From: Proteromonas lacertae
Taxonomy: Eukaryota > Sar > Bigyra > Opalinata > Proteromonadidae
Direction of reading: 5' to 3'
Assembly (NCBI GenBank): GCA_002245135.1
Contig: NGBS01000618.1
Span: forward strand, 1-64,000
Length of the DNA stretch: 64,000 bases
Shown here in pieces: positions 1,865-61,349 of this stretch. The notes beneath the pieces were generated by a model. It was given only the letters and a program-made list of their open reading frames with translations. It did no database searches and was not told the origin of the DNA. The number at the start of each line of letters is the position of its first letter. Within the stretch, counting starts at the first letter, position 1. The position numbers and the translations under genes were made by a program.

Positions 1865-4800
1865 ATGCCTTGTAACAAAAACAAGAAGTCTAGTGAACAT
1901 ATAGACCAAGAAATTATTAAAACCAAAAGTTCAATACAGCGACGGTAATATAGTTGTGGTTAGAGTAAATAGATTAATTGATTATATAGAATTTATGAAA
2001 ATATTGAGAGATAAAATCAATATTGTATCATTAGATGGATGTAAAATTAAAGTAGCTGACTTAATGTTGTACAAAATGAAAAATGATAAAGAATGTTATA
2101 TAACAGATATGAATGGTATATTATCTTCACAAGACAAATTTTTCCTTGCAAAAAGGAAAAAGAAACAAAGCGGAACTTTCGATTTTAGTAAATATGGTGA
2201 AGTAAACTATTTAATTCGAATAGTAAATAGTTTTAAAACAGACTTTGATTCAAATACCTTAGAAAATTGGATGAAATCGGCAAAGTTGTTTATTGATCGG
2301 TATTTGTATAAATGTATAATTGTAAGTGAAAATAATCCCAATCTTACATCATATTATCTCGCGCTCTTCTATATATTCTACAATGAATATAATTCAAACA
2401 GAATATATTGTGATATACTTCGAATTTTTAAATCTTTTGATAATTGTAAGAATATAATCACTTCATATACAATTAGTTTATGTGAAAAATATTCTAATGA
2501 GATATACGTTATAGGGATTGGTAATGATAAGGCAATAGATGATAATTTACTCCATTCTATTTGTTTTATTTCAGTATATCAAACAGATATAAAAAAGAAA
2601 TGGGATTATAATTCAATTAAAACAATCATAGATAAATTAACTCCACTTAAACATGTTTTATGTTCAGAATTACACACATATTACAGTATAATAAAGAATT
2701 ATTTAATATTTTATGATTCTGATATTAATTTGATTGAACAGCTTCCTATAATTCCAACAAATGAAGAAATACATTGCAATGAAGATTTGATATATTCTAT
2801 GCTTAGAGAGAATAAATTAAAAGACTATAACAGTGTTAGAGAATATTTAATAACTCATTATTTGTTATTGAGAGCAGATGTGTTATTGCCATTACAACAA
2901 ACTGTAACTGTATTATTTATATTATGAAATTTATATATATATATATATATGAATAGATTGCCTCTCTTTCAAAAGTAGATGGTAAGAATAGAATGTTTTG
3001 CTTCTCTTACAAGAACGTCAAGTGTAAATCATTTAATTTTGATAGTAGGAAAGGGTTGCTATATGAAATAGAGTTTGATAAACCATATGCTAAACTGAAA
3101 TGGAAATTTTCGTATATATATTTTCTAATTTGTAAATTATTTTTAGAAAACGATTAAAATATGGTGCTTTATTATGTTTAAGTAATGATAACTTTAAAAC
3201 ACTAATATGGTGTACTGTTGAAGATAGAAAAGAGTTGGAAAATGAAAAAGATAATAATAGCAAATCAAAAATTACAATAAAACTGTTAAATACAGGTGAA
3301 TCATTTTGTAGAATGTTGGATTATAAAATATTATATCAAATGGCAGAATCTCCAGAGATATTTTTTGAAGCATACGTATATATATTATTAATATAATTGA
3401 ATAGAAATATACTCTGATGTCTTTAAGCAAAAAATTATTAAATGCAGAATATAAATTACCATTCAAATCCAATTTAGTTGATGGAAAGAAGAAAATATCT
3501 TATCCATCATATATTAAACCATCAACTTCATATAAAATGAAATCTGTGTTTCCTGATTATGAACATCTTAGTATACTTGATAAATGGCCTAGTTATGAAG
3601 AATGCAAAAGTTTAGATGATAGTCAACTAGAAGCATTGAAGAACATGTTAACGAAAGAAATCAGTCTAGTTCAAGTATAATAGTATTAATGATATATTTA
3701 TATAGGGACCTCCAGGAACAGGTAAAACATACGTTGGTTCATTAGCGGTAAAAATTTTATTAGATAATCATAAATATAAAAGTCCCATTTTAATAGTTTG
3801 TTATACAAATCATGCACTGGATCAATTTCTTGAAACATTTACTGATGTGTTAAAACCAGGAGAATTAGTAAGAATAGGAGGTAGATGTAAATCAGAAAGA
3901 CTAGAAGAATATTCATATTATAATTCGAGTAAAAGGAATAGATACCGTTTAGACAGAGATTATGAAGAAATGAATAGACGTGTATTAAATATAAATCATT
4001 CATTTTGCTTATAGGTTTGTAAATTATCGTCTGAATTACATCAAACTTTTTCTGAATATAAGAAGAAAGCAGAAAAACCAATTAGATTTAGCGATTTATG
4101 TGATGCAGAAGTTATAAATAAAGAAGAGAAATACAATTTGAATGAACTAAAGCCACTTGATCCTCTTCCATATATCACTGCAGAAGAATTTAATAGAATT
4201 TATAAATCAAGCAAAGATATGCCATTAAATGATTTTATTGATAAAGAAAAGATGAGTTTATATAATGATCCTCTATACAAGTTCACTCATCAGGATGAGT
4301 TTTCAAAAAATAAGCTGATTAGAGAAAAAGAAGAAAAGAAGAAGAAAATGAATGAAATGTTTATTAATTGGTTCAACCAAGTACATTACTCAGAATATGA
4401 AATATCTATTGATATAAATGATGAGATCAAATTACACAAAGTTGATGAATTCTATAAGATTTATACAAAATACATTCCAAAATATGTAGAGATTTATAGA
4501 AAACACTTTGATCAATATATGTCAGTAGAAATAAAGAGTGGAATATGGCTATTAGAGCATAATGATAGAATTAATTTGAGCAACAAATGGATAAATAATT
4601 ATTATCATCAACAAAATGGAGATAAATTTAAGCAATTTGAAATCTATAAAGAATTATCAGAAAAATCGGAGATGATTAACTGTGAAATAGAAAGACAAAG
4701 ATTAAGAAATACAAAAATGATAGGAATGACAACTACTGGAGCAGCTAAATTAATAGATACCATTAATGAGTTAGGAATTGAAGTGATAGTAATAGAAGAA

Positions 4801-7800
4801 GCAGGAGAAGTATTAGAAGCTCACACTTTATCATTGTTGTGTGAATCATTGAAACATTTGATATTGATTGGAGATCATAAACAATTAAGACCTTCAGTAG
4901 TAAATTTCAATTTAGAGAATAAATATAATTTAACTAGATCGTTGTTTGAAAGATTAGTATTAAATGGAGTTGATTCAGTAATGTTAAAGACTCAAAGAAG
5001 AATGAGACCTGAAATATCTGACTTGATTAGATGTCCATCTTTATATCCAGACTTGAAAGATCATGAAAGTACCTTAAATCGAAGTAATATTCGTGGTTTA
5101 GTTTATAATGTTTATTTCTTTGATCATAATGCTCTAGAACCTGCATTTTATGAACAAAATGAAGAAAGTCATAGCAAAATAAATCCATATGAATGTAAAA
5201 TAATAATTCATTTTATGAAGTATTTACTTCAAGTAGGATATAACCCAGAACAAATAACAGTGTTAAGTTTCTATTTAGGTCAATGTCAATTAATATATGA
5301 AGAATGTAGTAAATTGTTAGGAATACAAACTTCAAAGAAATTTCGAATAATTGCTGTTGACAATTTCCAAGGTGAAGAAAATGATATTATAATTTTCAGT
5401 GCAGTTCGAAGTAATTTAAATAACAAAATAGGATTTTGTAGAGTAGAAAATCGAGTGAATGTTGCTTTATCTCGAGCTAAGAATGGTTTATTTATGTTTG
5501 GAAATATGGATTGTTTAATAAATGGAAGTCATAATCGAAGTGTATTTCCTGAAACGAATTTATGGGATTTTATAAAAGAAACATTGACTAAAAGAGATAT
5601 GATAGGAAAAAGTTTGCCATTAGTATGTCCAAATCACAACGATAGATTTTATTCAATTACAAAAGTTGAAGATTTTAAGAGATATTGTCCAACAGGAACA
5701 TGTGGTCAAATTTGTAAAAGAAGAATGAAATGTGGTCATAGTTGTAAATTGCGTTGTCATTTTGATGAATGTGAAATTCATTGTCAAGAACAATGTATGG
5801 AAATATTACCATGTGGTCATCAATGCAAAGGAAGATGTTCAAAATGTAAAAAGAATGAACTACATAGAAATTGTTTAGAATCATGTGAAAGAAATTTAAA
5901 ATGTGGACATAGATGTCAGAATAAATGTTCAGAAGAATGTACAAGTAAATGTATGGAAATGATAGATGTAACTCTTCCATGTGAACATAATAAGAGAATA
6001 CACTGTTATGAACAATACAATTTAGATATAATAAAATGTTTAAAGGTATATTTAAGTATATGAATATAATAAACATAGAATTGTAATAGGCAAATGAATT
6101 GTAATCATCAATGTAAAGGTAAATGCTATGAATGTAAAAATGGTCATATTGCTTGTTTAGAACCATGTGATAAAATGCTTTTATGTGGACATAAATGTTA
6201 TAATAAATGTTCAGAAGAATGTACAAGTAAATGTATGGAAATGATATATGTAACTTTTCCATGTGAACATAATAAGAGAATACACTGTTATGAACAATAC
6301 AATTTAGATATAATAAAATGTTTAAAGGTATATTTAAGTATATGAATATAATAAACATAGAATTGTAATAGGCAAATGAATTGTAATCATCAATGTAAAG
6401 GTAAATGCTATGAATGTAAAAATGGTCATATTGCTTGTTTAGAACCATGTGAAAGAAATTTAAAATGTGGACATAGATGTCAGAATAAATGTGGTGAAAA
6501 ATGTACAAGTAAATGTATGGAAATAGTAGATGTAACTCTTCCATGTGAACATAATAAGAGAATACACTGTTATGAACAATACAATTTAGATATAATAAAA
6601 TGTTTAAAGGTATATTTAAGTATATGAATATAATAAACATAGAATTGTAATAGGCAAATGAATTGTAATCATCAATGTAAAGGTAAATGCTATGAATGTA
6701 AAAATGGTCATATTGCTTGTTTAGAACCATGTGAAAGAAATTTAAAATGTGGACATAGATGTCAGAATAAATGTGGTGAAAAATGTACAAGTAAATGTAT
6801 GGAAATAGTAGATGTAACTCTTCCATGTGAACATAATAAGAGAATACACTGTTATGAACAATACAATTTAGATATAATAAAATGTTTAAAGGTATATTTA
6901 AGTATATGAATATAATAAACATAGAATTGTAATAGGCAAATGAATTGTAATCATCAATGTAAAGGTAAATGCTATGAATGTAAAAATGGTCATATTGCTT
7001 GTTTAGAACCATGTGAAAGAAATTTAAAATGTGGACATAGATGTCAGAATAAATGTGGTGAAAAATGTACAAGTAAATGTATGGAAATGATAGATGTAAC
7101 TCTTCCATGTGAACATAATAAGAGAATACACTGTTATGAACAATACAATTTAGATATAATAAAATGTTTAAAGGTATATTTAAGTATATGAATATAATAA
7201 ACATAGAATTGTAATAGGCAAATGAATTGTAATCATCAATGTAAAGGTAAATGCTATGAATGTAAAAATGGTCATATTGCTTGTTTAGAACCATGTGATA
7301 AAATGCTTTTATGTGGACATAAATGTTATAATAAATGTTCAGAAGAATGTACAAGTAAATGTATGGAAATGATATATGTAACTTTTCCATGTGAACATAA
7401 TAAGAGAATACACTGTTATGAACAATACAATTTAGATATAATAAAATGTTTAAAGGTATATTTAAGTATATGAATATAATAAACATAGAATTGTAATAGG
7501 CAAATGAATTGTAATCATCAATGTAAAGGTAAATGCTATGAATGTAAAAATGGTCATATTGCTTGTTTAGAACCATGTGAAAGAAATTTAAAATGTGGAC
7601 ATAGATGTCAGAATAAATGTGGTGAAAAATGTACAAGTAAATGTATGGAAATAGTAGATGTAACTCTTCCATGTGAACATAATAAGAGAATACACTGTTA
7701 TGAACAATACAATTTAGATATAATAAAATGTTTAAAGGTATATTTAAGTATATGAATATAATAAACATAGAATTGTAATAGGCAAATGAATTGTAATCAT

Positions 7801-10800
7801 CAATGTAAAGGTAAATGCTATGAATGTAAAAATGGTCATATTGCTTGTTTAGAACCATGTGATAAAATGCTTTTATGTGGACATAAATGTTATAATAAAT
7901 GTTCAGAAGAATGTACAAGTAAATGTATGGAAATGATATATGTAACTCTTCCATGTGAACATAATAAGAGAATACACTGTTATGAACAATACAATTTAGA
8001 TATAATAAAATGTAATGAAATTTGTGAAATATATTTACCATGTAATCATGTTGTAGAACGCTTCTGTTATGAAAATATAAACAAAAGTATATGTGAATGT
8101 AAACATCCTTGTGATATGTTATTAAAATGTGGACATGTTTGTAAAGGTACATGCTTTGAATGTAGAAATGGTCATATTAAATGTAGAGAAATTGTATATA
8201 AGAAAATTAAATGTGGGCATTTTAGAGAATATGAGTGTTTTATTTATAGAAAACATACTTTATTTTGTGGAGTATATTCTTTATTTATATAATCTTTAGT
8301 TTTTGTACAATTTTATTTCTAGTTTATCATATAAGTGTGAAAATCACTGTATGAAGATATTACCTTGCGGACATAATTGTCCTAATAAATGTTATGAACA
8401 TTGTCCATCAATTTGCAGGGTAGTTGAAGAAATAACCTTGCCTTGCAAACATTCAATCGAAGTAGAATGTAATGAAAAGTATAAAACATATATTTCACCA
8501 TGTAATATTGTGATGAGTAAAACATTATCATGTGGACATACAATACAGTATTTATGTTGTGAAAGAGACTCTAGAAAGTCATATTATTGTCCAAATCAAT
8601 GTGAAATCACATTAGATTGTGGTCATAGATGTAGAGGTATTTGTGGTGAGTGTGTTATGTGTAATAAACATAAGCTATGCAATGAACCATGTGATAAAAT
8701 GCTTTTATGTGGACATAAATGTTATAATAAATGTTCAGAAGAATGTACAAGTAAATGTATGGAAATGATATATGTAACTTTTCCATGTGAACATAATAAG
8801 AGAATACACTGTTATGAACAATACAATTTAGATATAATAAAATGTTTAAAGGTATATTTAAGTATATGAATATAATAAACATAGAATTGTAATAGGCAAA
8901 TGAATTGTAATCATCAATGTAAAGGTAAATGCTATGAATGTAAAAATGGTCATATTGCTTGTTTAGAACCATGTGATAAAATGCTTTTATGTGGACATAA
9001 ATGTTATAATAAATGTTCAGAAGAATGTACAAGTAAATGTATGGAAATGATATATGTAACTTTTCCATGTGAACATAATAAGAGAATACACTGTTATGAA
9101 CAATACAATTTAGATATAATAAAATGTTTAAAGGTATATTTAAGTATATGAATATAATAAACATAGAATTGTAATAGGCAAATGAATTGTAATCATCAAT
9201 GTAAAGGTAAATGCTATGAATGTAAAAATGGTCATATTGCTTGTTTAGAACCATGTGAAAGAAATTTAAAATGTGGACATAGATGTCAGAATAAATGTGG
9301 TGAAAAATGTACAAGTAAATGTATGGAAATAGTAGATGTAACTCTTCCATGTGAACATAATAAGAGAATACACTGTTATGAACAATACAATTTAGATATA
9401 ATAAAATGTTTAAAGGTATATTTAAGTATATGAATATAATAAACATAGAATTGTAATAGGCAAATGAATTGTAATCATCAATGTAAAGGTAAATGCTATG
9501 AATGTAAAAATGGTCATATTGCTTGTTTAGAACCATGTGAAAGAAATTTAAAATGTGGACATAGATGTCAGAATAAATGTGGTGAAAAATGTACAAGTAA
9601 ATGTATGGAAATAGATAGATGTAACTCTTCCATGTGAACATAATAAGAGAATACACTGTTATGAACAATACAATTTAGATATAATAAAATGTTTAAAGGT
9701 ATATTTAAGTATATGAATATAATAAACATAGAATTGTAATAGGCAAATGAATTGTAATCATCAATGTAAAGGTAAATGCTATGAATGTAAAAATGGTCAT
9801 ATTGCTTGTTTAGAACCATGTGATAAAATGCTTTTATGTGGACATAAATGTTATAATAAATGTTCAGAAGAATGTACAAGTAAATGTATGGAAATGATAT
9901 ATGTAACTTTTCCATGTGAACATAATAAGAGAATACACTGTTATGAACAATACAATTTAGATATAATAAAATGTTTAAAGGTATATTTAAGTATATGAAT
10001 ATAATAAACATAGAATTGTAATAGGCAAATGAATTGTAATCATCAATGTAAAGGTAAATGCTATGAATGTAAAAATGGTCATATTGCTTGTTTAGAACCA
10101 TGTGAAAGAAATTTAAAATGTGGACATAGATGTCAGAATAAATGTGGTGAAAAATGTACAAGTAAATGTATGGAAATAGTAGATGTAACTCTTCCATGTG
10201 AACATAATAAGAGAATACACTGTTATGAACAATACAATTTAGATATAATAAAATGTTTAAAGGTATATTTAAGTATATGAATATAATAAACATAGAATTG
10301 TAATAGGCAAATGAATTGTAATCATCAATGTAAAGGTAAATGCTATGAATGTAAAAATGGTCATATTGCTTGTTTAGAACCATGTGATAAAATGCTTTTA
10401 TGTGGACATAAATGTTATAATAAATGTTCAGAAGAATGTACAAGTAAATGTATGGAAATGATATATGTAACTCTTCCATGTGAACATAATAAGAGAATAC
10501 ACTGTTATGAACAATACAATTTAGATATAATAAAATGTAATGAAATTTGTGAAATATATTTACCATGTAATCATGTTGTAGAACGCTTCTGTTATGAAAA
10601 TATAAACAAAAGTATATGTGAATGTAAACATCCTTGTGATATGTTATTAAAATGTGGACATGTTTGTAAAGGTACATGCTTTGAATGTAGAAATGGTCAT
10701 ATTAAATGTAGAGAAATTGTATATAAGAAAATTAAATGTGGGCATTTTAGAGAATATGAGTGTTTTATTTATAGAAAACATACTTTATTTTGTGGAGTAT

Positions 10801-13800
10801 ATTCTTTATTTATATAATCTTTAGTTTTTGTACAATTTTATTTCTAGTTTATCATATAAGTGTGAAAATCACTGTATGAAGATATTACCTTGCGGACATA
10901 ATTGTCCTAATAAATGTTATGAACATTGTCCATCAATTTGCAGGGTAGTTGAAGAAATAACCTTGCCTTGCAAACATTCAATCGAAGTAGAATGTAATGA
11001 AAAGTATAAAACATATATTTCACCATGTAATATTGTGATGAGTAAAACATTATCATGTGGACATACAATACAGTATTTATGTTGTGAAAGAGACTCTAGA
11101 AAGTCATATTATTGTCCAAATCAATGTGAAATCACATTAGATTGTGGTCATAGATGTAGAGGTATTTGTGGTGAGTGTGTTATGTGTAATAAACATAAGC
11201 TATGCAATGAACCATGTGATAAAATGCTTTTATGTGGACATAAATGTTATAATAAATGTTCAGAAGAATGTACAAGTAAATGTATGGAAATGATATATGT
11301 AACTTTTCCATGTGAACATAATAAGAGAATACACTGTTATGAACAATACAATTTAGATATAATAAAATGTTTAAAGGTATATTTAAGTATATGAATATAA
11401 TAAACATAGAATTGTAATAGGCAAATGAATTGTAATCATCAATGTAAAGGTAAATGCTATGAATGTAAAAATGGTCATATTGCTTGTTTAGAACCATGTG
11501 ATAAAATGCTTTTATGTGGACATAAATGTTATAATAAATGTTCAGAAGAATGTACAAGTAAATGTATGGAAATGATATATGTAACTTTTCCATGTGAACA
11601 TAATAAGAGAATACACTGTTATGAACAATACAATTTAGATATAATAAAATGTTTAAAGGTATATTTAAGTATATGAATATAATAAACATAGAATTGTAAT
11701 AGGCAAATGAATTGTAATCATCAATGTAAAGGTAAATGCTATGAATGTAAAAATGGTCATATTGCTTGTTTAGAACCATGTGAAAGAAATTTAAAATGTG
11801 GACATAGATGTCAGAATAAATGTGGTGAAAAATGTACAAGTAAATGTATGGAAATAGTAGATGTAACTCTTCCATGTGAACATAATAAGAGAATACACTG
11901 TTATGAACAATACAATTTAGATATAATAAAATGTTTAAAGGTATATTTAAGTATATGAATATAATAAACATAGAATTGTAATAGGCAAATGAATTGTAAT
12001 CATCAATGTAAAGGTAAATGCTATGAATGTAAAAATGGTCATATTGCTTGTTTAGAACCATGTGAAAGAAATTTAAAATGTGGACATAGATGTCAGAATA
12101 AATGTGGTGAAAAATGTACAAGTAAATGTATGGAAATAGTAGATGTAACTCTTCCATGTGAACATAATAAGAGAATACACTGTTATGAACAATACAATTT
12201 AGATATAATAAAATGTTTAAAGGTATATTTAAGTATATGAATATAATAAACATAGAATTGTAATAGGCAAATGAATTGTAATCATCAATGTAAAGGTAAA
12301 TGCTATGAATGTAAAAATGGTCATATTGCTTGTTTAGAACCATGTGATAAAATGCTTTTATGTGGACATAAATGTTATAATAAATGTTCAGAAGAATGTA
12401 CAAGTAAATGTATGGAAATGATATATGTAACTTTTCCATGTGAACATAATAAGAGAATACACTGTTATGAACAATACAATTTAGATATAATAAAATGTTT
12501 AAAGGTATATTTAAGTATATGAATATAATAAACATAGAATTGTAATAGGCAAATGAATTGTAATCATCAATGTAAAGGTAAATGCTATGAATGTAAAAAT
12601 GGTCATATTGCTTGTTTAGAACCATGTGAAAGAAATTTAAAATGTGGACATAGATGTCAGAATAAATGTGGTGAAAAATGTACAAGTAAATGTATGGAAA
12701 TAGTAGATGTAACTCTTCCATGTGAACATAATAAGAGAATACACTGTTATGAACAATACAATTTAGATATAATAAAATGTTTAAAGGTATATTTAAGTAT
12801 ATGAATATAATAAACATAGAATTGTAATAGGCAAATGAATTGTAATCATCAATGTAAAGGTAAATGCTATGAATGTAAAAATGGTCATATTGCTTGTTTA
12901 GAACCATGTGATAAAATGCTTTTATGTGGACATAAATGTTATAATAAATGTTCAGAAGAATGTACAAGTAAATGTATGGAAATGATATATGTAACTCTTC
13001 CATGTGAACATAATAAGAGAATACACTGTTATGAACAATACAATTTAGATATAATAAAATGTAATGAAATTTGTGAAATATATTTACCATGTAATCATGT
13101 TGTAGAACGCTTCTGTTATGAAAATATAAACAAAAGTATATGTGAATGTAAACATCCTTGTGATATGTTATTAAAATGTGGACATGTTTGTAAAGGTACA
13201 TGCTTTGAATGTAGAAATGGTCATATTAAATGTAGAGAAATTGTATATAAGAAAATTAAATGTGGGCATTTTAGAGAATATGAGTGTTTTATTTATAGAA
13301 AACATACTTTATTTTGTGGAGTATATTCTTTATTTATATAATCTTTAGTTTTTGTACAATTTTATTTCTAGTTTATCATATAAGTGTGAAAATCACTGTA
13401 TGAAGATATTACCTTGCGGACATAATTGTCCTAATAAATGTTATGAACATTGTCCATCAATTTGCAGGGTAGTTGAAGAAATAACCTTGCCTTGCAAACA
13501 TTCAATCGAAGTAGAATGTAATGAAAAGTATAAAACATATATTTCACCATGTAATATTGTGATGAGTAAAACATTATCATGTGGACATACAATACAGTAT
13601 TTATGTTGTGAAAGAGACTCTAGAAAGTCATATTATTGTCCAAATCAATGTGAAATCACATTAGATTGTGGTCATAGATGTAGAGGTATTTGTGGTGAGT
13701 GTGTTATGTGTAATAAACATAAGCTATGCAATGAACCATGTGATAAAATGCTTTTATGTGGACATAAATGTTATAATAAATGTTCAGAAGAATGTACAAG

Positions 13801-15402
13801 TAAATGTATGGAAATGATATATGTAACTTTTCCATGTGAACATAATAAGAGAATACACTGTTATGAACAATACAATTTAGATATAATAAAATGTTTAAAG
13901 GTATATTTAAGTATATGAATATAATAAACATAGAATTGTAATAGGCAAATGAATTGTAATCATCAATGTAAAGGTAAATGCTATGAATGTAAAAATGGTC
14001 ATATTGCTTGTTTAGAACCATGTGATAAAATGCTTTTATGTGGACATAAATGTTATAATAAATGTTCAGAAGAATGTACAAGTAAATGTATGGAAATGAT
14101 ATATGTAACTTTTCCATGTGAACATAATAAGAGAATACACTGTTATGAACAATACAATTTAGATATAATAAAATGTTTAAAGGTATATTTAAGTATATGA
14201 ATATAATAAACATAGAATTGTAATAGGCAAATGAATTGTAATCATCAATGTAAAGGTAAATGCTATGAATGTAAAAATGGTCATATTGCTTGTTTAGAAC
14301 CATGTGAAAGAAATTTAAAATGTGGACATAGATGTCAGAATAAATGTGGTGAAAAATGTACAAGTAAATGTATGGAAATAGTAGATGTAACTCTTCCATG
14401 TGAACATAATAAGAGAATACACTGTTATGAACAATACAATTTAGATATAATAAAATGTTTAAAGGTATATTTAAGTATATGAATATAATAAACATAGAAT
14501 TGTAATAGGCAAATGAATTGTAATCATCAATGTAAAGGTAAATGCTATGAATGTAAAAATGGTCATATTGCTTGTTTAGAACCATGTGATAAAATGCTTT
14601 TATGTGGACATAGATGTCAGAATAAATGTGGTGAAAAATGCACTGATATGTGTAGAGCAGTAGTTACAGTACAACTTACATGTGGACATAATAAGATAAT
14701 ATATTGTTACCAACAGCATAATATGAGATGTGAAGAAGTATTATATTCTCAAATTTATATATTCTTATAGCCATGTGGAAACATACTTCCCTGTGGTGAT
14801 AAATGTCAGAATAAATGTTATGAAAAATGCACAACTGAATGTAAAGCAATAAAGAGAGTGAAACTTCCATGTCAGCATTATAAAAGAATATATTGCTATC
14901 AACAATACTATTTAAGAGATATTGCATGTGATGAGATAGTGAATGTGAAATTGAAATGTGGACATGTAGTTCAAGTTAAATGTCGTGAGAAAGAAAATAT
15001 TAAAAGAGAAGTATTAAATATTGTTATTTATTGTTTTAATAGAGATGCAAGGCAATGGTAAAAATTCCTTTAAATTGTGGTCATTATAAGGATGTAATGT
15101 GCTGTGAAAAGAATAAACAAACACATTGTGAAACAATGATTTATCATACTCTTCCTTGTGGTCATTCTAAACGAATCATGTGTTTTCAAAAGAATTATAC
15201 TCATATTAAATGTGAAGAAGAATGTGGAGCTATATTGCCGTGTAGACATAGATGTAAAGGAATATGTTATAAATGTCAACATTCTCATTTAAAATGTACA
15301 GAAGAATATAATTTGAGACTACCGTGTGGTCACTATAGAACAGTCATGTGTTTTCAACGTAGTTATACTAATTTAAAATGTAGAACTTGTAGGCATAGAT
15401 AA
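1865..15402 (+). CDS. ZNFX1-like SF1 RNA helicase with a giant NFX1-type zinc-finger array
   Basis: Hand splicing joins the first seven exons (1865-1944, 1964-2909, 2957-3111, 3147-3375, 3405-3674, 3706-3981, 4015-6045), then a long array of repeat exons, and finally 14498-14737, 14771-15010 and 15043-15402. The total is about 4,155 residues, against about 1,900 for human ZNFX1. All UPF1-like SF1 motifs are present: GPPGTGKT (near 3706), VIEEAGEV (4790), GDHKQLRP (4868), QRRMRPEI (4994), VDNFQGEEND (5358) and RVNVALSRAKN (5452). An N-terminal helical region precedes them. From about 5630 to the stop the protein is Cys/His rings of the NFX1 type (CGHxCxxxC and CxHxCxGxCxxC). ZNFX1 proteins act in RNA surveillance and small-RNA pathways, and in mammals as antiviral dsRNA sensors; that role is inferred here. 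Intron 1 (1945-1963) would be only 19 nt. One unit exon (9449-9698) carries an extra base. Confidence 0.85.
7771..10295 (+). repeat. Higher-order repeat copy 1 (2,525 bp)
   Basis: Contains the 501-nt fused exon (7771-8271), a 28-nt intron (8272-8299), a 552-nt exon (8300-8851) and five unit exons in the order B, A, A, B, A. It is one base longer than copy 2 because of the extra base at about 9614. The 167- and 184-residue exon products equal those of the other copies. Confidence 0.9.
9449..9698 (+). other. Repeat-unit exon with a +1 frameshift
   Basis: This unit is 250 nt instead of 249. Where sister units read gaaatagtagatg or gaaatgatagatg, it reads gaaatagatagatg, which looks like a blend of the two with one extra base. 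Read straight, the frame meets TGA about ten codons later. Because the flanking introns are both phase 0, skipping this exon would restore the frame. A consensus error in a collapsed repeat is equally possible. Confidence 0.75.
10296..12819 (+). repeat. Higher-order repeat copy 2 (2,524 bp)
   Basis: Same layout as copy 1: fused exon 10296-10796, 28-nt intron 10797-10824, exon 10825-11376, then unit exons at 11410, 11692, 11974, 12256 and 12538 in the order B, A, A, B, A. Every unit stays in frame. Confidence 0.9.
12820..14497 (+). repeat. Higher-order repeat copy 3 (partial)
   Basis: Fused exon 12820-13320, intron 13321-13348, exon 13349-13900, then only two units (13934 B, 14216 A). The next exon (14498) begins as variant B, switches to A-like residues at CGHRCQNKC, and then diverges into the unique C-terminal fingers, marking the end of the amplified block. 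Confidence 0.85.
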
Positions 15403-33230: not shown

Positions 33231-35492
33231 TTACTTGGATGATTGTTTCTGAGTTTCTTCTTCATGTATCTTCACTTTCAAACTCTTGATTTCATCTTCA
33301 TTCACTGTTACTTTCTTACCTTCTTCAATATACGAAGGAATTGTCTCAGCCATATTAATCTGTTTCAAATATCTATTTCTATAATACAATACTATATTTG
33401 AATATTTTCCAGCTTTCTGAGCTATCTCCATTGCATGTTCCCATCTAAATAATCGAATATTCATCTTAATAGCTCTATAAGTCAATGGAGGATAATGTTG
33501 TAATAACATAGCTTCAGCTTCTTCTGGTCTTCTTTGATATAAGGATAATTCAGCATTCTTTACTGTATCATTTGGTAAATTCATTATATATAATATATAA
33601 CTCTGTTTAGCTACTTCACCAAGGCAAGCTAAAGCTTGTTCTGCTCTATTTAATTGATTATTACCAATTGCCATTGCAGCTAAAGTAGCCCATAATGCTT
33701 CTGACTCTACAAATCGACATAATCTAATTGCACCATCCCATTTACCTGTTACTATTAAATCATACAATATAGCAGGATAAGGTGAAACACTTGTAGATAT
33801 TAAACCGCCATTTTGATTCTTTATTGTTAATTGATTACCAGTAAATGAATATATTTCAGGTGATTTTCCTAGATATATATCATATCTTGTTTCTATTGTT
33901 TTCTCTAATAGATCTTTATCAATATAAATAATCTTTGGATAATAGAAACTTTCTATTTTACCATCACTTAAAGCAATCAACATATTACTGTTAGTTGCCC
34001 AACTTATACTATCAACCATTGATAATAGTTTAAATGGTTTATTCTTACTAATATTAGATATATATAATTCTCTATTTACATCTATATAAGCTATCATTCT
34101 TTCTTTATCTTTCCATTGACTTAATGCTATTTCTTCTATATTATGAGGATGAAATAAACCATTTCCTAAAGGTTTACCACTACTTACATCAAAGAAACGA
34201 ATAGTTTTATTATCACTTCGATCTATTACACCTAATATATCAGAACTCAAACTGATTGTCTTATTATTTAAGAATTGAGTTTGTAATCCTTTAAATCTAG
34301 GTGAAGATGTTACTCTTCCTTCATAACTCATTATTTGAATACCATTTGTATTATCTACTAACACAAAACTAGTCTCACCAGGTATAATTAAACTACAACT
34401 GTATCTCAAATCAAATGAATGAGGAGAAGTCCAATTACCACATTCATATATAAAACATTGAGTTGATGTTGCTACAACTAAATGATCATAACTCATTGCC
34501 ATTTCCACTATTCTATCACGATATTCCAATTCTTCTTTACTACCATTATTACTATCAATTATTTGAATTGTTCTACTATCTGTTTCTTCTACTGTTAAGG
34601 ATTTCCATTGTAATTTTCTTCCAATTGCATATGCTACAAGCATTGAACCTGTACCACAAGCACAACCTAATACAGTACCATCTGTACTCCAGCACATATC
34701 AAAGGGAGATCCATCTTCTATTGCTTGTCTTGCACTACAGAATCCATTATGTTCACATAATCTCAATGAACCAAAACAACCAACTACAAATTGATCACCT
34801 GATGGTTTCCAAGATACTGATGTGATTACATTGTCTACTAAAGAACTTTGATATAATAATCGACCATATGGATCCCATATCTTATATCTACAATCTTCAC
34901 CACCTGAGATTATTAGATTATTTACTGAATTCCAGTCAACTTTCATTATTACGCCATCATGAGCTTTCCAACGTAATTGTCTAGCTGCATTTTGTAAACC
35001 TTTGATTAATAAATCTTTTCCTGAAGCAATAACCATTTGATCTCCATCTCCACCCCAAGAGAAGGAATATACTGAATTGGGTAATTGTGCTATTACTGCT
35101 CTTGCCATACCTGTTTTTGACCATGCTTTTACTTGACCATCTTCACCACAAGACACAATTGCTCCTCCATCCATACTCCACTTTACATTAATAACAGCTC
35201 CACGATGTGCATCTACTTTCTTTTCCTCTCTACCACTTTTGTTTACTATTCTGTAAGTACCATCAGTACAACCGACTAAAAATATGTCTGAAGAGCTAGC
35301 TCCATGTGTTGGATACCAATCAATTGATGTGATACAACTATCTAAACTACAAACTGATCCTAAGTTTTGACCATCAATATCCCAACGATATATTGTTTGA
35401 TCATCAGAACCTGTGTAATATTCATTTGATGGGCTGAAACAGATTGCTGTTGCCATATCTGTATGGCATCTCTTACCTTTTCTAACATTCAT
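33231..35492 (-). CDS. IFT80: Intraflagellar transport protein 80 (IFT-B)
   Basis: A single uninterrupted frame of 753 residues, close to the 777 of human IFT80. The first half is two WD40 propellers, with blades such as GCTDGTYRIVNKSGREEK, HRGAVINVKWSMDGGAIVSC, GEDGQVKAWSKTGM, WKAHDGVIMKVDWNSVNNL and GGEDCRYKIWDPYGRLLY. These match the family almost blade for blade. The C-terminal third is alpha-solenoid (SKWEDAVRLCRF-like segment at about 33720, then MWATLAAMAIGN-like and NWERA-like helices). IFT80 is a peripheral subunit of the IFT-B complex, which carries cargo to the ciliary tip. Its presence shows that the organism builds a cilium or flagellum. It is the only long intronless host gene in the window. 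Confidence 0.97.
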   Translation of the reverse strand: MNVRKGKRCHTDMATAICFSPSNEYYTGSDDQTIYRWDIDGQNLGSVCSLDSCITSIDWYPTHGASSSDIFLVGCTDGTYRIVNKSGREEKKVDAHRGAVINVKWSMDGGAIVSCGEDGQVKAWSKTGMARAVIAQLPNSVYSFSWGGDGDQMVIASGKDLLIKGLQNAARQLRWKAHDGVIMKVDWNSVNNLIISGGEDCRYKIWDPYGRLLYQSSLVDNVITSVSWKPSGDQFVVGCFGSLRLCEHNGFCSARQAIEDGSPFDMCWSTDGTVLGCACGTGSMLVAYAIGRKLQWKSLTVEETDSRTIQIIDSNNGSKEELEYRDRIVEMAMSYDHLVVATSTQCFIYECGNWTSPHSFDLRYSCSLIIPGETSFVLVDNTNGIQIMSYEGRVTSSPRFKGLQTQFLNNKTISLSSDILGVIDRSDNKTIRFFDVSSGKPLGNGLFHPHNIEEIALSQWKDKERMIAYIDVNRELYISNISKNKPFKLLSMVDSISWATNSNMLIALSDGKIESFYYPKIIYIDKDLLEKTIETRYDIYLGKSPEIYSFTGNQLTIKNQNGGLISTSVSPYPAILYDLIVTGKWDGAIRLCRFVESEALWATLAAMAIGNNQLNRAEQALACLGEVAKQSYILYIMNLPNDTVKNAELSLYQRRPEEAEAMLLQHYPPLTYRAIKMNIRLFRWEHAMEIAQKAGKYSNIVLYYRNRYLKQINMAETIPSYIEEGKKVTVNEDEIKSLKVKIHEEETQKQSSK

Positions 35493-52201: not shown

Positions 52202-52675
52202 CGTTGGGAGATAAATGGATTTTAGATTGCGTTGAAGTTATAAACGTAATCTAAATCCCATAAATATTACAAAAATACACTTATATTTTATTGTTCTGGT
52301 TACTCAGTTATATATGTATCACTGCTTGTTTATACTTAATATTAAACATCTGTAGCAATAGTAGAAAACGAAATTAAGGCTAAAAATGATTAGAATTAGA
52401 TAACTTTAATTTCTTTATACTTAATATTGAATTTGAAATTATAGGCTTGAAAGAGGTTTGAACTCAATTTTTATTTTTCCTTTTTTAATTACCTTAACAT
52501 CTTTTTTTTCACATCTTATTCATCTCAGGTGATGAATTTTTGTCTCCAGAAGCTTTAAATAAAATATATCGCAAATGTAGCTTATATACCAAAATAAGAT
52601 TATATTTGAATATAACTCACTACCTAGCCCTCTACTGTCATATTATTTTCTATAAAACCCATTTATCTCCCAACG
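52202..52675. mobile_element. MITE-like element with 17-bp terminal inverted repeats (474 bp)
   Basis: The sequence cgttgggagataaatgg (52202-52218) recurs as an exact reverse complement at 52659-52675. A hairpin-capable subterminal stretch follows the left end (ttttagattgcg ... cgtaatctaaat, 52220-52258). No gene is inside and no clear target duplication is seen. The left edge of the large palindrome (52429) lies within it, so the right arm of the palindrome carries only the inner half, with one terminus at about 61454-61470. The same termini could belong to a larger related element. Confidence 0.55.
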
Positions 52676-52779
52676 GCATAAATCTCCTAATGGCTTATAA
52701 CAACATCGCATAATTCAATCAATTAAAATACTTCTCTTTACTGTCTTCTTCTCTTCTTGTCTTTTTCTAATACCTCTTC

Positions 52780-52890
52780 TTATTCCTCAACATTATCTAA
52801 TCTATTTATTCCTAAATTATCATCTTTGAACTTCTTTATATCACTTTCGTATATTAACAATGTAATTATTTCATCATTTTCATCACACAT
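52780..52890 (-). CDS. Small acidic ORF, left-arm copy (36 aa, doubtful)
   Basis: Mirror of 61239-61349. The frame reads MCDENDEIITLLIYESDIKK and stops at TAA, after which the same frame stays open for 13 more codons (EEVLEKDKKRRRQ). It may be a relict of a longer gene rather than a real product. Confidence 0.25.
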   Translation of the reverse strand: MCDENDEIITLLIYESDIKKFKDDNLGINRLDNVEE

Positions 52891-53855
52891 TTCTTCTTTA
52901 TAATTGTTTCTTAATCATCAATGTATAAATCATTTACTTTTTCATTAAATGTATATACACATGATACTATGAATATTATTCTATACAATTAGCAAATATA
53001 TGCATGTTTATATACAAAAATAGTTAAAATAACTAATTACAATCAAAATGATAATATTTTACACAAATAATAAAATTACATTAAAAGATGACAATTACAT
53101 GTATTTTTACTTCTTTTACTTTTTTTATTTTCTCATTTTTCTCTTCATATACTAATGAATATGTATTAATTTCTCTATCATGAATCAAATAAATAAATAT
53201 TCAATCTGAAGTTATATGTAATATAGGTTGCTAATCACTTTTTCTACTATATTACTTTGAAAGTGCATATAACGCAATATAAATTTTATAATTATACAAT
53301 TAAACATTAGATATAACTATATAACAACTAATTAGAATAGATCCTCTAAATTTGAAATGTCATTTATATACAAGGAGATATTTTCTTAGCTTTACTCACA
53401 TAGATTTACAATTTATATATTATCTTTAAGAATAATTCGAGAATTCTAATAAGTCTTCGGTACAAAGTGATTGCCCAGTGTTTGATAGTTTACTAATAGC
53501 AAGCGAATTTAGTTATGAAATATTACTTAATTTAGAAATATTGTTGGTTCTGTCGAGTTGGAATTTCTATTAAAAGTCTATCTAAAAAGTATTAAAATTT
53601 GATATTTTTAATTTATAGCTAAATACAAACTTCAACATGTAATTAATAGATGTGTAGAGTATTGGCTTTTTATTCAAACTTAAAGACAATTAAAAAACGA
53701 AAAGAAAATGGTGTTAAAGTCAAAATTCAACGAGCCCAGCTTGGGTCAAGTATATAAGTCCTATTTGCAAAATAGATTAGAATTCTTATAGTGGCTTGAG
53801 TTATTTTTCTTTTTTTAATTGTAAGTGAGCCATCCATTATTTTTTAAAATTGATA
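52891..53855. other. Noncoding flank upstream of CSN1 (left arm)
   Basis: About 965 bp of AT-rich sequence without a supportable gene. It must contain the promoter of the left CSN1 copy. Its mirror is 60274-61238. Confidence 0.45.
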
Positions 53856-55264
53856 ATGAGTTTTTCAGATAGATCAAACGACTCACCATTTTCATCGCAA
53901 GGAGATCCATTTGAACATATTTTATCATATTCTGAAGATTATATAGATTTAAAGAAGGTATTCTACTTTAATTTACATCACTGTAGATTTCAAGACTAGT
54001 TTATATGGCAGATAGAAACAATGAGTATTCTAGACATGCTTTTCTAGAAGCACTTAAGTACAGCAACAGCAAGCACATTCCAGCTTTTATTGAAGAAGTA
54101 TAGAAATAATTAATAACAATTATAGCTTAAACAAATCAATGCAAAACATCAATTTCACTTTGATGACATATTAAAGGACACTGTAAAGTCACATAACTTA
54201 AAAATCATTGAAACAACTAGAAAGGTATATTTTCAAGATTATTTGAAATTCATAGCTTGATTTAGAAAACAGAGCAGAATATTTCGCAAACAAACACGAA
54301 TACAACAAAGCAGTCGCATCGTTAGTCCAATCCAGACAATATGGCAACACAGACAAAGATCGAGGATTAACTCAATTAAAGATATGTAGTTTAGTCTCTA
54401 TCTTCGGTGATGGTAAAAGTCTATTAAATCACAGTCAATATAATAAAGGACTATTAGAATTAAAGAATCAAAGTTTAGAAATTTATCATGGTTTGAACGT
54501 ATGTTATGCTTTAAGTAAAATCATCACACCCTGCAAATTAGAAGAATATAAACGAAATTTAAGAGATGCTTCAAGGATATTAAGAGATGTAATATTATCA
54601 AGAAGGTATAAAGAAGAAGTTATGCCGTTTAATCATGTGATTATATATTTTGTAATTTCTTTCATTTGTGGTTCAAGCAGAGATGAATTATTGAGTGAGG
54701 TAGTGAATAATTCAACATTAATGAAGATTATTAAAGAATCATATCCAAATTTGAAAGTATTGTTTAATTCTATTACTCAATGTGATTATAAGTCCTATAG
54801 ATTATCTTGGATTAAAATGAATGTATATATAATGTATATTCATTTTTATACCCAAATTTTACATATTTTTTTTATTTTTTTATCTTTATTATTATTGTAA
54901 TAGAGATTCATTGAAAATGATTATATTCTCAGATTTACGAATGTAGCAATTGTAGGTTTATTCAAGAAAGCATCATTAGAACAGTACTTCAAACCATATG
55001 CTATCATTAAACTATCATTAATGGCAGAAGAATTTGGTGATAATTTAGATAATTTTCAAAAAGAAATGAACAATTTGATAATTACAGGAATTATTGACGG
55101 TGAAATTGATAAAGAGAATCAATATTTATATTTGAAGAAAGTCAAATGTATATATTTATTTACTAATTTTATTTATTTATAAATCTGACTATAGAGCACC
55201 TAGTTCTCATGGTCATTTAGTCCAAAGAAATCTGAGCATTTCGATAGAACATATTAGTAATTGA
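53856..55264 (+). CDS. CSN1: COP9 signalosome subunit 1 (CSN1/GPS1), left copy
   Basis: Exons 53856-53957, 53987-54097, 54126-54224, 54256-54822 and 54904-55147 join in frame (introns 29, 28, 31 and 81 nt). A last exon, 55197-55264, is reached only with an AGAG acceptor; with the nearer TAG acceptor the protein would end at once. Length is 374-396 aa, shorter than human CSN1 (491), mainly at the N-terminus. Residues about 36-60 (ISRLVYMADRNNEYSRHAFL) match the CSN1 N-terminal repeat. The C-terminal PCI domain shows CGSSRDELLSEVVNNSTLMK, like the DRQEL...NVISSSSFK block of CSN1, and KASLEQYFKPYAIIKLSLMA, like the ALIQYFSPY block. CSN1 scaffolds the complex that removes NEDD8 from cullins. Rpn7 is a paralogue but fits less well. 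Confidence 0.8.
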
Positions 55265-55459
55265 AACTGATTAATTATATTGTTTTTATTAATATATGTT
55301 TGTATAAATCGGTTATGACCTCTAGTAAGTATTAGTTGACCTCTTTTGTAGTATGTGTTTCTAATCATAAAATCATGTATAAACATATTAAGCTATATAT
55401 ATCATTCAACAAAAGATAAATTAACAGACGGTTGATTATTAACATTTGATTATTATCTC

Positions 55460-55467
55460 ATCTAAAC
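55460..55467. repeat. hAT target-site duplication, left
   Basis: atctaaac directly before the ctggg terminus; matches 58173-58180. Confidence 0.95.
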
Positions 55468-58172
55468 CTGGGTTCGATAAAGGGCGTCCTTTTCGAATTT
55501 TGCCCTATTTTTGCCCCTTTTTTTTCAGCTGAAAAGAAGCCTGCCCCTTACTGCTCGGGCATAGTAATATTACCATGTGTTATGCTGTAGTATATTTTTT
55601 CTGATTTTTTGTTATAACTTTTCCATATTATCATCTAGATATACTAACATATGTTAAAAAGGATATATTATTGTGTATTATAGCATAATAGTCATCTACT
55701 TTTCTTATGATTATATAATATCATATGTTTATGCATATATACTAATTATATAGAATATACATACTGTATATCATATTCTGATATGCATATATATACATTA
55801 TGTACATTTCAAGGTGATTGACGTCACTGAACATAAATGAAATTTATATAATAAATAATTTTGTATATTACACATATATCATATAGATAATTAAGAAGTA
55901 TAGCTATAGAATGGGTATTTTCAGTTAATTGATAATCAATAGTACTTGTTATGATAATAACATAATATATTTCATAAACTAATAGAAAAACTATTTCAAA
56001 ATTACTATTTAGTATATTTTGCATACTACTTAATGTATTTCAAGCAATTATTTCAATACTTAGAAAATGGTTTGAGAATTTCGAGCTATCATTTTGCATT
56101 TCAATTGTATATGGGTAAAACGAGAGATGCTGTGTATAGATACTTTAATGAAGATGTGGTGTTAAAGAAACCCCTTGAAAAATACAACAGAATTCAATGC
56201 AGAAGGTGCAAGGCAATGATTATTGCTCATTGCACTAATTTGAAACGTCATTACAAAAAGTATAAATATATTTATTATATTTATTAAATTAGATGTAGTG
56301 AAAAGCTAATCCAATCAAAACTTACATAATTGAGATATGATGAACGTGCAATAAACTTAATGGTGACCAAATATCTTATAGAAAATAACTTAGCTTTCAG
56401 AACCATACAATCTAAATCCTTTAAAAATCTAATATATACATTAAATCCAACTACAAAGTCAATAACAATAAACAAAATAAAAGCATCAATGAACGAAGAA
56501 GCAGAAAGAATAGTAAAGGAAATTGTAGATAACAGTAAAATATGTATAATTGTGGACGCTTGGAAATCAGTAACCAATGAAAACGTTATTAATTTGGCAA
56601 TAAAGAAAAGCAGTGATATTTCGTTTTTGGAATCCATTTATTTACATAAACGAGAAACATCAGAAAATATAGTGGAATTAATAATTCAAACATTAGTGAA
56701 GTATAAACTAGATATTAAAAACATTGTTGCTGTGAGTAGTGATAACAACTACACCATGAAAAAGATAAGTAGTATTTTAGAGAAAAAAATAAATAGACCT
56801 GTAGTAAAGTTTGGATGTTTAGCACACATCCTAAACTTAATCAGTAAAAAAGTATTCGAAATAGAGAAATACAAAAAAGTGATAGTCATGTGTAATGACA
56901 TTATTCATAAGTTAAATAATAATCAAAAGATTAGAGAAACTATATATTCAATTATACAAAAAAATATCCAAATACGCAAGGGTTGTGATACGAGATGGTC
57001 AAGCTATAGCGATGTATTTAGAAAAATATTACTCAATAAAGAAATTTTATTACAGATAAAATTATTAAAGGAAGAAGATATACAAGAAATTAAAGAATGC
57101 TACAAGATTGCAAAATATATTTCCACAAATATACACTTATTATGCAAAGATTCATCTACATTAAATGATGGTTTCAGAATATTGACCAAAATTAAAAGAA
57201 AGTTAATGAAAAGGTCATCAAGTGAAAAAGAACTTATTAAAGACATTATAAAAAAAGAGACTAGACATGCAAACTACAGCATTTTAGCTCTATATGAATT
57301 TTTAGACATAAACAGTAAACATAAATTTTCAGACATGGAGAAGGATAATATAAAAAGATATATATTATCTAAATTCAGCCCTATTTTAAATCAGAAAGCA
57401 TTAAATGAGATTTATCATTTTGAAAGAAGAAAACCATACTGCAAAAAGTGCCCTTCAGATATATTTTCGAAAAAGATATCAACTAATATATGGTACAATA
57501 TGTATGGAGTTTTTTACCCAAATGTTAAGAAGCTATATGATATTCTTTCAACTATTCCTGTCACAAGCTCATTTATTGAACGTTCATTTAGTATTGAGGG
57601 AATAGTTCATAATCATATTAGAAATAAATTACAGCTTAATACTATAAATAATATTTTAAGAATAAAATATGATTTATTAAAAGAAAAAAACAAAGAAAAA
57701 GATATAAATGAAGATGATAATGATATTAGTGAAGAAGAATATAATTTAGATGTGCTGAATGAAATTGATAACAATATAGTATATGACACTTTAGATTATC
57801 AATGTTCTGGTGATGAAGATGAAAGTTCTGGTAGTTCTAGCGATGAAGGTTTAAGTGATGAAAGTTCTAGTGATGAAGGTTTTAGTGATGAAGGATCTCA
57901 AAGCCCTTACTTTTAAGGCTATTATTATAATGAAATATTATTGTTTGTTATTGTTATAAGATAATAATACATAATTATGAAAAGAATAAATATTTTTATA
58001 GCGTTTAATATCCCTAAAATCGCACAAAATATAAAAATTCAAATAAAATAATTGAAAAGGGCAAATTGTACCCTTTTCTATTTTTAGATAGTATAAAGGA
58101 CGCCCCTTTCAATTTTTGCCCGGGACATGCCCTTGTCCCGCCACTGCCCTGTCCCTTTATTATTCAACCCAG
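55468..58172 (+). mobile_element. Autonomous hAT transposon (2,705 bp)
   Basis: Left terminus ctgggttcgataaaggg; the right terminus reads, as reverse complement, ctgggttgaataataaaggg, giving imperfect inverted repeats of 17-20 bp. An 8-bp target duplication atctaaac flanks it, the length typical of hAT. About 100 bp at each end is strikingly GC-rich for this genome and carries related subterminal motifs (agggcgtcctttt at the left; aaaggacgcccctttc at the right). It encodes one BED-finger transposase (56033-57916). The 565 bp before the gene are noncoding. The untouched palindrome arm keeps the empty site. Confidence 0.93.
56033..57916 (+). CDS. hAT-family transposase with N-terminal BED finger
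   Basis: Exon 1 (56033-56259) holds a BED zinc finger (CRRC ... NLKRHYKK). Exon 2 (56335-57916) follows in frame after a 75-nt intron that must use a GAG acceptor, since a TAA precedes it. Total about 602 aa. The catalytic part shows hAT blocks: IIVDAWKSVTNEN (first Asp), VSSDNNYTMKK (second Asp), CLAHILNLIS, CDTRWSSYSDVF, and the C-terminal dimerisation block PVTSSFIERSFSIEGIVHN with the catalytic Glu, then RNKLQLNTI. All three acidic residues are present and there is no stop, so it looks intact. The tail (about 60 residues) is acidic and repeats SSDEG/SDESS, unusual for the family. Confidence 0.9.
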
Positions 58173-58462: not shown

Positions 58463-58690
58463 ATGAAAAGTTATGAGATAATCACTTCCTTTATAACAAA
58501 TGAAAGAAATTTAGTATATAAAGGAAGTTATAAAATGAAAGATATAAGCTGCACAGCTGCTTACGATGTAGTATCTCAAATCAATACAAATTGTCAAGGA
58601 AGTTGTTTAATAATTAGTGTAATAACAATGAATATTGTGGATTATCCAGTATTGAGTTTCAGTTTAGATGAGATAATAATCAAATGTTAA
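58463..58690 (+). CDS. Small hypothetical protein (75 aa), intact right-arm copy
   Basis: Reads MKSYEIITSFITNERNLVYK and ends SFSLDEIIIKC. It has four cysteines, mixed strands and helices, and no signal peptide or known motif. It starts 6 bp inside the inner end of the arm, so a longer ancestral frame may have been cut by the inversion. Convergent with the CSN1 copy that ends at 58865. Could be chance or a gene fragment. Confidence 0.35.
   Translation: MKSYEIITSFITNERNLVYKGSYKMKDISCTAAYDVVSQINTNCQGSCLIISVITMNIVDYPVLSFSLDEIIIKC
58662..58669. other. Empty hAT target site in the right arm
   Basis: A single gtttagat (reverse complement of atctaaac), with the same flanks as both sides of the left-arm insertion. 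It shows the sequence before transposition. Confidence 0.92.
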
Positions 58691-58864
58691 TAATCAACCG
58701 TCTGTTAATTTATCTTTTGTTGAATGATATATATAGCTTAATATGTTTATACATGATTTTATGATTAGAAACACATACTACAAAAGAGGTCAACTAATAC
58801 TTACTAGAGGTCATAACCGATTTATACAAACATATATTAATAAAAACAATATAATTAATCAGTT

Positions 58865-60273: not shown

Positions 60274-61238
60274 TATCAATTTTAAAAAATAATGGATGGC
60301 TCACTTACAATTAAAAAAAGAAAAATAACTCAAGCCACTATAAGAATTCTAATCTATTTTGCAAATAGGACTTATATACTTGACCCAAGCTGGGCTCGTT
60401 GAATTTTGACTTTAACACCATTTTCTTTTCGTTTTTTAATTGTCTTTAAGTTTGAATAAAAAGCCAATACTCTACACATCTATTAATTACATGTTGAAGT
60501 TTGTATTTAGCTATAAATTAAAAATATCAAATTTTAATACTTTTTAGATAGACTTTTAATAGAAATTCCAACTCGACAGAACCAACAATATTTCTAAATT
60601 AAGTAATATTTCATAACTAAATTCGCTTGCTATTAGTAAACTATCAAACACTGGGCAATCACTTTGTACCGAAGACTTATTAGAATTCTCGAATTATTCT
60701 TAAAGATAATATATAAATTGTAAATCTATGTGAGTAAAGCTAAGAAAATATCTCCTTGTATATAAATGACATTTCAAATTTAGAGGATCTATTCTAATTA
60801 GTTGTTATATAGTTATATCTAATGTTTAATTGTATAATTATAAAATTTATATTGCGTTATATGCACTTTCAAAGTAATATAGTAGAAAAAGTGATTAGCA
60901 ACCTATATTACATATAACTTCAGATTGAATATTTATTTATTTGATTCATGATAGAGAAATTAATACATATTCATTAGTATATGAAGAGAAAAATGAGAAA
61001 ATAAAAAAAGTAAAAGAAGTAAAAATACATGTAATTGTCATCTTTTAATGTAATTTTATTATTTGTGTAAAATATTATCATTTTGATTGTAATTAGTTAT
61101 TTTAACTATTTTTGTATATAAACATGCATATATTTGCTAATTGTATAGAATAATATTCATAGTATCATGTGTATATACATTTAATGAAAAAGTAAATGAT
61201 TTATACATTGATGATTAAGAAACAATTATAAAGAAGAA
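60274..61238. other. Noncoding flank upstream of CSN1 (right arm)
   Basis: Mirror of 52891-53855, with no gene recognised. Confidence 0.45.
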
Positions 61239-61349
61239 ATGTGTGATGAAAATGATGAAATAATTACATTGTTAATATACGAAAGTGATATAAAGAAGTT
61301 CAAAGATGATAATTTAGGAATAAATAGATTAGATAATGTTGAGGAATAA
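61239..61349 (+). CDS. Small acidic ORF, right-arm copy (36 aa, doubtful)
   Basis: Identical to the left-arm frame, with the same internal TAA and the same open continuation to 61391. It lies divergently upstream of the CSN1 copy in the same arm. Confidence 0.25.
   Translation: MCDENDEIITLLIYESDIKKFKDDNLGINRLDNVEE

Follow-up and report, generated by a model that had tools for sequence, protein, structure and literature searches.

How can the number of zinc fingers in a protein change severalfold while its reading frame is kept, and can such a change separate two copies of one gene? These questions are raised by a locus in the protist Proteromonas lacertae, in the first 64,000 nucleotides of contig NGBS01000618.1 (assembly GCA_002245135.1; this whole stretch is called the window below), where a gene for a ZNFX1-like helicase of superfamily 1 (SF1) runs into a long tandem array. 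The locus is most probably a coding variable number tandem repeat (VNTR) with intron-bearing units that is heterozygous for length, the window and a second contig of the same assembly representing the two haplotypes.

A putative intron of 33 nt, GTATATTTAAGTATATGAATATAATAAACATAG, occurs in 22 exact copies, the first starting at 6046 and the last starting at 14465 and ending at 14497, and a search allowing up to four edits gave the same 22 places and none besides. Successive starts lie 282 bp apart in 17 cases, 283 bp in one and 1114 bp in three. Tandem Repeats Finder reported a single array (5871–14629, period 282) with a score of 9546, so the array is not attributable to chance. It is preceded by a related unit at the 3′ end of the main helicase exon (the lead) and is followed by an end exon. 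Its parts are:

6046..14497, + strand, array of 22 identical 33 nt introns and 21 exon segments (exact-copy search)
6046..6078, + strand, first 33 nt intron of the array (sequence; splice-motif comparison)
6328, 6610, 6892, 7174, 7456, 7738, 8852, 9134, 9416, 9699, 9981, + strand, starts of later 33 nt introns, first part
10263, 11377, 11659, 11941, 12223, 12505, 12787, 13901, 14183, 14465, + strand, starts of later 33 nt introns, second part
6079..6327, + strand, phase 0/0 exon of type A (83 codons), one of seven identical copies and the first of them
6361..6609, + strand, exon of type B (83 codons), one of nine identical copies and the first of them; mosaic of lead and end-exon sequence
6925..7173, + strand, B′ exon, apparent recombinant, as B through site 138 and lead-like at sites 164–177
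7771..8851, + strand, long module L: exon 7771–8271 (501 nt), intron 8272–8299 (28 nt), exon 8300–8851 (552 nt)
10296 and 12820, + strand, starts of further L copies, without difference
9449..9698, + strand, type B exon with a one-base insertion (Bfs, 250 nt)
14498..14737, + strand, exon closing the array (end exon), 80 codons; no difference from the other haplotype contig in the 243 nt compared

The exon segments between introns measure 249 nt (83 codons) in 17 cases, 250 nt in one and 1081 nt in three, and run from first to last as A B B B′ A B L A B Bfs A B L A B B A B L A B. The short ones comprise seven identical copies of type A, nine identical copies of type B, the single B′ and a single frameshifted B (Bfs). 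Types A and B differ at 19 sites per 249 nt, all of them between sites 92 and 177. The three copies of L show no differences; each has an A-like start, lacks the 33 nt intron, continues with new fingers and one 28 nt intron (starting at 8272, 10797 and 13321), and closes with an A-like end. Superimposed on the units is a higher-order repeat, in which A B B A B L (2524 bp) forms the block and is present about three times. Copies 2 and 3 of this block differ by one base (2525 and 2524 bp), and copy 1 is longer by one 282 bp unit, the distinct B′.

The array itself had been proposed from a sequence-only reading of the window, and its existence and its end at 14497 are confirmed. The block of one 33 nt intron and one 83-codon exon, taken there as the unit, describes 17 of the 21 segments; the 250 nt segment and the three 1081 nt segments depart from it, and the expected uniformity gives way to three long modules, two exon types and one frameshift. 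Likewise, symmetry (phase 0/0), claimed for every unit, is found in 20 of the 21 segments (the long ones counted as exons of 501 + 552 nt) and fails in the frameshifted 9449–9698, so that the units are tandem and in frame as in a coding VNTR. The introns had been described as being as conserved as the exons. They are conserved even more strongly, with no differences among 22 copies while the exons split into types. The higher-order repeat, the two exon types and the composition of type B, a mosaic of the first and last units of the array, go beyond what had been noticed before. Open reading frames (ORFs) of up to 833 aa on the opposite strand of the array (5675–8176, − strand) were set aside as a consequence of the array's period, which is divisible by three.

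The organism's own assembly (50.2 Mb, 1181 contigs) was searched for further copies of the locus. Contig C476 (19,949 bp) aligns to the window on both flanks of the array at 98.5–99.1% identity, with 37 substitutions in 5804 aligned bases (0.64%) and 22 gap events on the left, and 38 substitutions in 8092 aligned bases (0.47%) and 13 gap events on the right. The haplotype of the window is denoted H1 and that of C476 H2. The C476 array has the form lead-A′-A′-L′-end and contains four copies of the same 33 nt intron, compared with 22 in the window. First and last introns lie 8419 apart in the window and 1677 apart in C476. The difference of 6742 equals 16 × 282 + 2 × 1114 + 2, where the final 2 comes from one inserted base in Bfs of the window and one deleted base in L′ of C476. 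The leads of H1 and H2 differ at 12 bases, all within sites 64–102 of the stretch that was compared; over these sites the H2 lead resembles A. A polymorphic unit count, previously a guess, gains support from these two contigs of one assembly (22 and 4 intron copies); they look allelic, and we infer that they are alleles, each with its correct copy number.

A similar difference is seen at a second ZNFX1-like array, located on contigs C254 (49600–53400) and C562 (9100–10800), which also appear to be allelic (98.3–99.95% identity in long flanking pieces). A 33 nt intron is present there in 4 versus 2 copies and a 28 nt intron in 2 versus 1, and C254 carries a 979 bp block repeated at 100% identity. 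A paralogue on C49 consists of a lead, one unit and one L-like exon. More copies of the ZNFX1-like helicase occur on C129, C783, C1051 and at C254:37513–38817 (45–76% identity), indicating that this family has expanded in the genome.

Several observations weigh against the two contigs being correctly assembled alleles. C476 is tied to the window by sequence similarity only, and could be a recent paralogous duplicate of the 20 kb region instead of an allele. A small third contig (C409:1–948) matches the window helicase too, at 83–99% identity and with stops; it may be another copy, so that the locus may exist more than twice, or a badly called consensus of one of the haplotypes. Paralogy of C476 is nonetheless improbable, given that this contig is colinear with the window on either side of the array up to its own end, and that its 0.5–0.6% of substitutions is of the order found between C254 and C562.

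The main rival to the allelic interpretation is an assembly artefact, in which the H1 array was inflated or the H2 array collapsed and the true copy numbers are equal. Contig C1015 represents the same haplotype as C476 (2 mismatches and 13 gap openings in an alignment of 5.9 kb); it ends partway through the array, and frameshifts interrupt its helicase exon. Both arrays, H1 and H2, have a one-base indel in a unit, and the spliced frame from 4015, left unedited, runs into a stop at residue 1754 in H1 and residue 869 in H2, out of 3305 and 1274, respectively. The consensus is therefore imperfect at the array and the copy numbers could be wrong; the identical units of H2 could hide a collapse, and the single base separating copies 2 and 3 of the higher-order repeat fits an artefact as well. 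The Bfs unit reads AAATAGATAG; the corresponding letters are AAATAGTAG in type B and AAATGATAG in both B′ and the lead. Bfs combines the additional letters of B with those of B′, and such a union is the pattern expected of a consensus made from merged reads of two unit types. The frameshift may accordingly be a consensus error and is not taken as proof of a broken gene, but the gene may be broken. What makes an artefact unlikely overall, though a good deal less so than paralogy, is that the H2 form lead-A′-A′-L′-end resembles the C49 paralogue and so looks like a natural short form, that the units of H1 and H2 show fixed differences (their leads being 12 bases apart), that the first higher-order copy holds the extra, distinct unit B′, and that a like difference exists between C254 and C562.

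The units also carry information on how the arrays have changed. In a comparison of nine unit sequences, type B matches only the H1 lead at sites 92–103 and only the end exon at sites 132–138 and 164–165, with B′ siding with B at sites 92–103 and 132–138. These patterns in B, B′ and the lead look like traces of exchange between units and not of mutation. Types A and B are separated by 17 non-synonymous and 2 synonymous differences, giving a non-synonymous rate (dN) above the synonymous rate (dS), as would be expected if B arose by conversion and not by point mutation. At site 47, both short units of H2 (A′) and its long unit (L′) have T, while the 18 short exons and the three L copies of H1 have C, so these copies are closer to their neighbours than to their counterparts. 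A point on the other side is the end exon, which is the same in both haplotypes and has C at site 47 in H2 also, making homogenisation incomplete there. Had the 22 H1 units existed since H1 and H2 separated, they would be expected to have gathered 12–20 private substitutions. None was found once the A/B/B′ differences, attributed to exchange, and a single indel are set aside, which points to amplification or homogenisation after the haplotypes split. The earlier suggestion of recent amplification or ongoing homogenisation agrees with these results, both in the lack of intron differences and in the haplotype-specific letters that units have in common.

The identification of the 33 nt segments as spliceosomal introns is well supported by comparisons within the gene family. 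Each segment starts with GTATAT, ends with CATAG and contains in-frame stops. Phase-0 segments joining x-C-x-x to x-C-x(3-6)-C-x-H-x-C of the finger repeat were looked for in six stretches of the family, all from this genome and including the allelic pair C254 and C562. Fifteen distinct GTA...TAG segments of 28–41 nt are placed in phase 0 at x-C-x-x|x-C-x(3-6)-C-x-H-x-C; ten have lengths that are not multiples of 3, the other five have in-frame stops, and joining across these segments gives fingers whose cysteines are regularly spaced. None of the 35 alternative motif permutations gave a segment at this finger position in the six stretches, and GTA/TAG ranks first of 4096 trinucleotide pairs, the runner-up scoring 7. 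The array intron, called as such from the start, agrees in consensus, phase and position with 14 other introns of the family. At the same site the C49 paralogue has a 34 nt intron of unrelated sequence in two identical copies, and the match of a related protein (P0241) to the first L exon ends at a like place, running into an apparent donor. Across the window outside the array, GTAT..TAG bridges long frames 16 times (29–56 nt; a few of these are neighbouring alternatives for one intron), compared with 1–7 times for eight decoy motif pairs and 3 times for GTAA..TAG. Inside the array the decoys ATGT..TAG and GTAT..ATG bridge frames 19 and 20 times and GTAT..TAG 24 times; the scan is uninformative there because every frame repeats, and these counts were excluded from the splicing argument. 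The conceptually spliced protein, used as a search query, matched three proteins, none above 51% identity, so that no transcript product of the species itself was among them.

It is very improbable that the segments are not introns, with the units being separate mini-ORFs or the gene a pseudogene decaying with stops. Each intact short exon does have an in-frame ATG, giving ORFs of 83 aa, and one unit is frameshifted; but these readings would leave 15 distinct segments of varied length with a common position, phase and consensus, and they are at odds with purifying selection on the helicase and the fingers. The gene surrounding the array is laid out as follows:

3417..3674, + strand, exon before the Walker A exon; the open frame has its first ATG, a candidate start, at 3417
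3675–3705, + strand, 31 nt GTAT...TAG intron (GTAT..TAG scan)
3706..3981, + strand, exon with GPPGTGKT (Walker A)
3982–4014, + strand, 33 nt intron after the Walker A exon (GTAT..TAG scan)
4015..6045, + strand, main helicase exon and first fingers, with the lead unit at its 3′ end (Pfam, PDB match, dN/dS)
14738..14770, + strand, 33 nt intron of different sequence at a C-x-x|x-C position (GTAT..TAG scan; outside the set of 15 segments)
14771..15402, + strand, C-terminal exons with more fingers, through the stop (sequence and open frames)
15011–15042, + strand, 32 nt intron (read by eye)

The helicase exon matches the Pfam families AAA_11 and AAA_12. Its best match among 24 solved sequences is ZNFX1 (9q9z, E 2.1e-81), with an alignment that extends into the first fingers, and UPF1 is second (E 5.7e-26), in keeping with the initial assignment to ZNFX1-like helicases. 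A protein search with this exon gave no match above 45% identity among the best 120 of 2165. Exons A and B each encode 15 cysteines and two C-x-H-x-C cores, and between 5611 and the end exon the cores number 62 in H1 and 16 in H2, the latter count taking the H1 version of the frameshifted L exon of H2. An NFX1 pattern fits one of the two cores in A, B and the end exon, and also stretches of L. No Pfam finger family matched the units even at E 10, and three ZNFX1-like relatives likewise gave none. An RZ finger was not detected in three C-terminal pieces (14498–14737, 14771–15012 and 15055–15399), which matched no families, while the same profile library detects RZ in P0016. A genome-wide search for RZ was empty and is uninformative, its control likewise being without signal. 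A predicted structure of one 83 aa exon had a mean predicted local distance difference test (pLDDT) score of 40 and was not used.

Judging from the substitution patterns, the helicase and its fingers are under purifying selection. Over 4015–5816, H1 and H2 differ by 5 synonymous and 2 non-synonymous changes (dS 0.0154, dN 0.0014, dN/dS about 0.09). Comparison of A and B with the C49 units gave dN of 0.14–0.17 and dS of 0.58–0.77 (dN/dS about 0.23 and about 0.29 for unit A), and the cysteines and histidines of the fingers are unchanged across A, B and B′. Tandem repeats vary by default, and the chance that the length variation is real but neutral, the extra fingers having no consequence, is put at slightly less than even. 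The constancy of the finger cysteines and histidines and the low dN/dS between A and C49 (below 0.3) argue against neutrality, but are silent on whether number matters. If it does, finger number could alter the strength or multivalency of the helicase's hold on RNA or partners.

The formation of a length-heterozygous coding VNTR is best explained as follows. The host is an AT-rich protist whose assembly appears to retain some second haplotypes, and each short unit consists of a small putative spliceosomal intron and a phase-0 exon with two C-x-H-x-C cores. Because introns lie at a constant point of the finger repeat, misaligned exchange would gain or lose whole intron–exon modules in frame. 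H1 would have passed through at least two rounds: in one, units multiplied and type B arose by conversion between the first unit and the last; in the next, the 2.5 kb block was amplified. H2 would have kept a short, ancestral-like form. A bolder and rather doubtful extension is an intron-paced accordion, in which the fixed intron point makes modules exchangeable, finger number outpaces allele divergence at several paralogues, and the outcome is a diversifying or dosage-like mechanism of an RNA-sensing system.

Parts of this arrangement are known from other genes. In the zinc-finger minisatellite of PRDM9, finger number varies between alleles by unequal exchange, and the C2H2 finger units lie within one exon, without introns. 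The present array is like PRDM9 in its apparent allelic variation in finger number, and unlike it in having an intron in each unit. The kringle IV type 2 (KIV-2) unit of LPA is composed of whole exons with introns and encodes one kringle, a structure that fits the intronic short tandem repeat described within it.

Human LPA KIV-2 is described as a protein-coding VNTR with 1–40 units of 5.6 kb per allele (PMC11462820); it encodes a component of a plasma lipoprotein, in contrast to the 282 bp units with a 33 nt intron in an RNA helicase gene described here. Another precedent is the Cryptococcus gene CNN00420, where the repeat unit includes a full intron, introns 3–5 are identical, splicing is supported by expressed sequence tags, and repeat and intron number differ between strains, with six introns in one strain (PMC2395259). 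Both loci have intron-bearing units, the number of which varies between strains there and apparently between haplotypes here. The CNN00420 repeat is about 107 nt and consists of exon ends and an intron (PMC2395259), whereas the 282 bp units here hold a whole zinc-finger exon, occur in 22 versus 4 copies and are arranged in a higher-order repeat.

Human ZNFX1, as summarised in a review, has 1918 aa with six NFX1-type fingers and an RZ finger (PMC11959080). The protist gene is similar in that an SF1 helicase is followed by NFX1-type fingers (PMC11959080, PMC13270118), and differs in having 62 (H1) or 16 (H2) C-x-H-x-C cores and no RZ match in the three C-terminal pieces scanned. ZNFX1 is stated in a second review to recognise long single-stranded RNA and to form higher-order assemblies (PMC13270118), properties that, by analogy, might carry over to the protist helicase. 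The biological properties of its NFX1-type fingers are called largely unexplored in the first review (PMC11959080). An apparent allele pair with about 16 and about 62 finger cores behind nearly the same helicase would allow asking what finger number does, and the locus illustrates how a fixed intron position can make a domain array into exchangeable in-frame modules. In the literature on ZNFX1 and NFX1-type fingers, copy number and protist expansion, judged by titles and abstract openings and with few subscription papers, no report of such an array was found. As far as that search goes, the novelty lies in the ZNFX1 context, the repeat on two levels and the unequal lengths of the two contigs; intron-bearing repeats varying between strains (CNN00420, PMC2395259) and large coding VNTRs (LPA KIV-2, PMC11462820) have precedents.

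Two features elsewhere in the window were also recorded. A perfect inverted repeat of 3039 nt (100% identity) occupies 52429–55467 and 58662–61700, with 3194 nt between the arms, and includes in this interval an ORF (56330–57916) with matches to DUF659 and the hAT dimerisation domain; the repeat may be a recent element or an assembly fold-back. A gene for IFT80 lies at 33234–35492 (− strand), open over 753 codons and matching the Pfam IFT80 propeller. Its closest matches are at 96% and 81% identity, and the best from a named organism is at 46% among the best 120 of 707 matches. The presence of IFT80 indicates that the organism has, or had, cilia.

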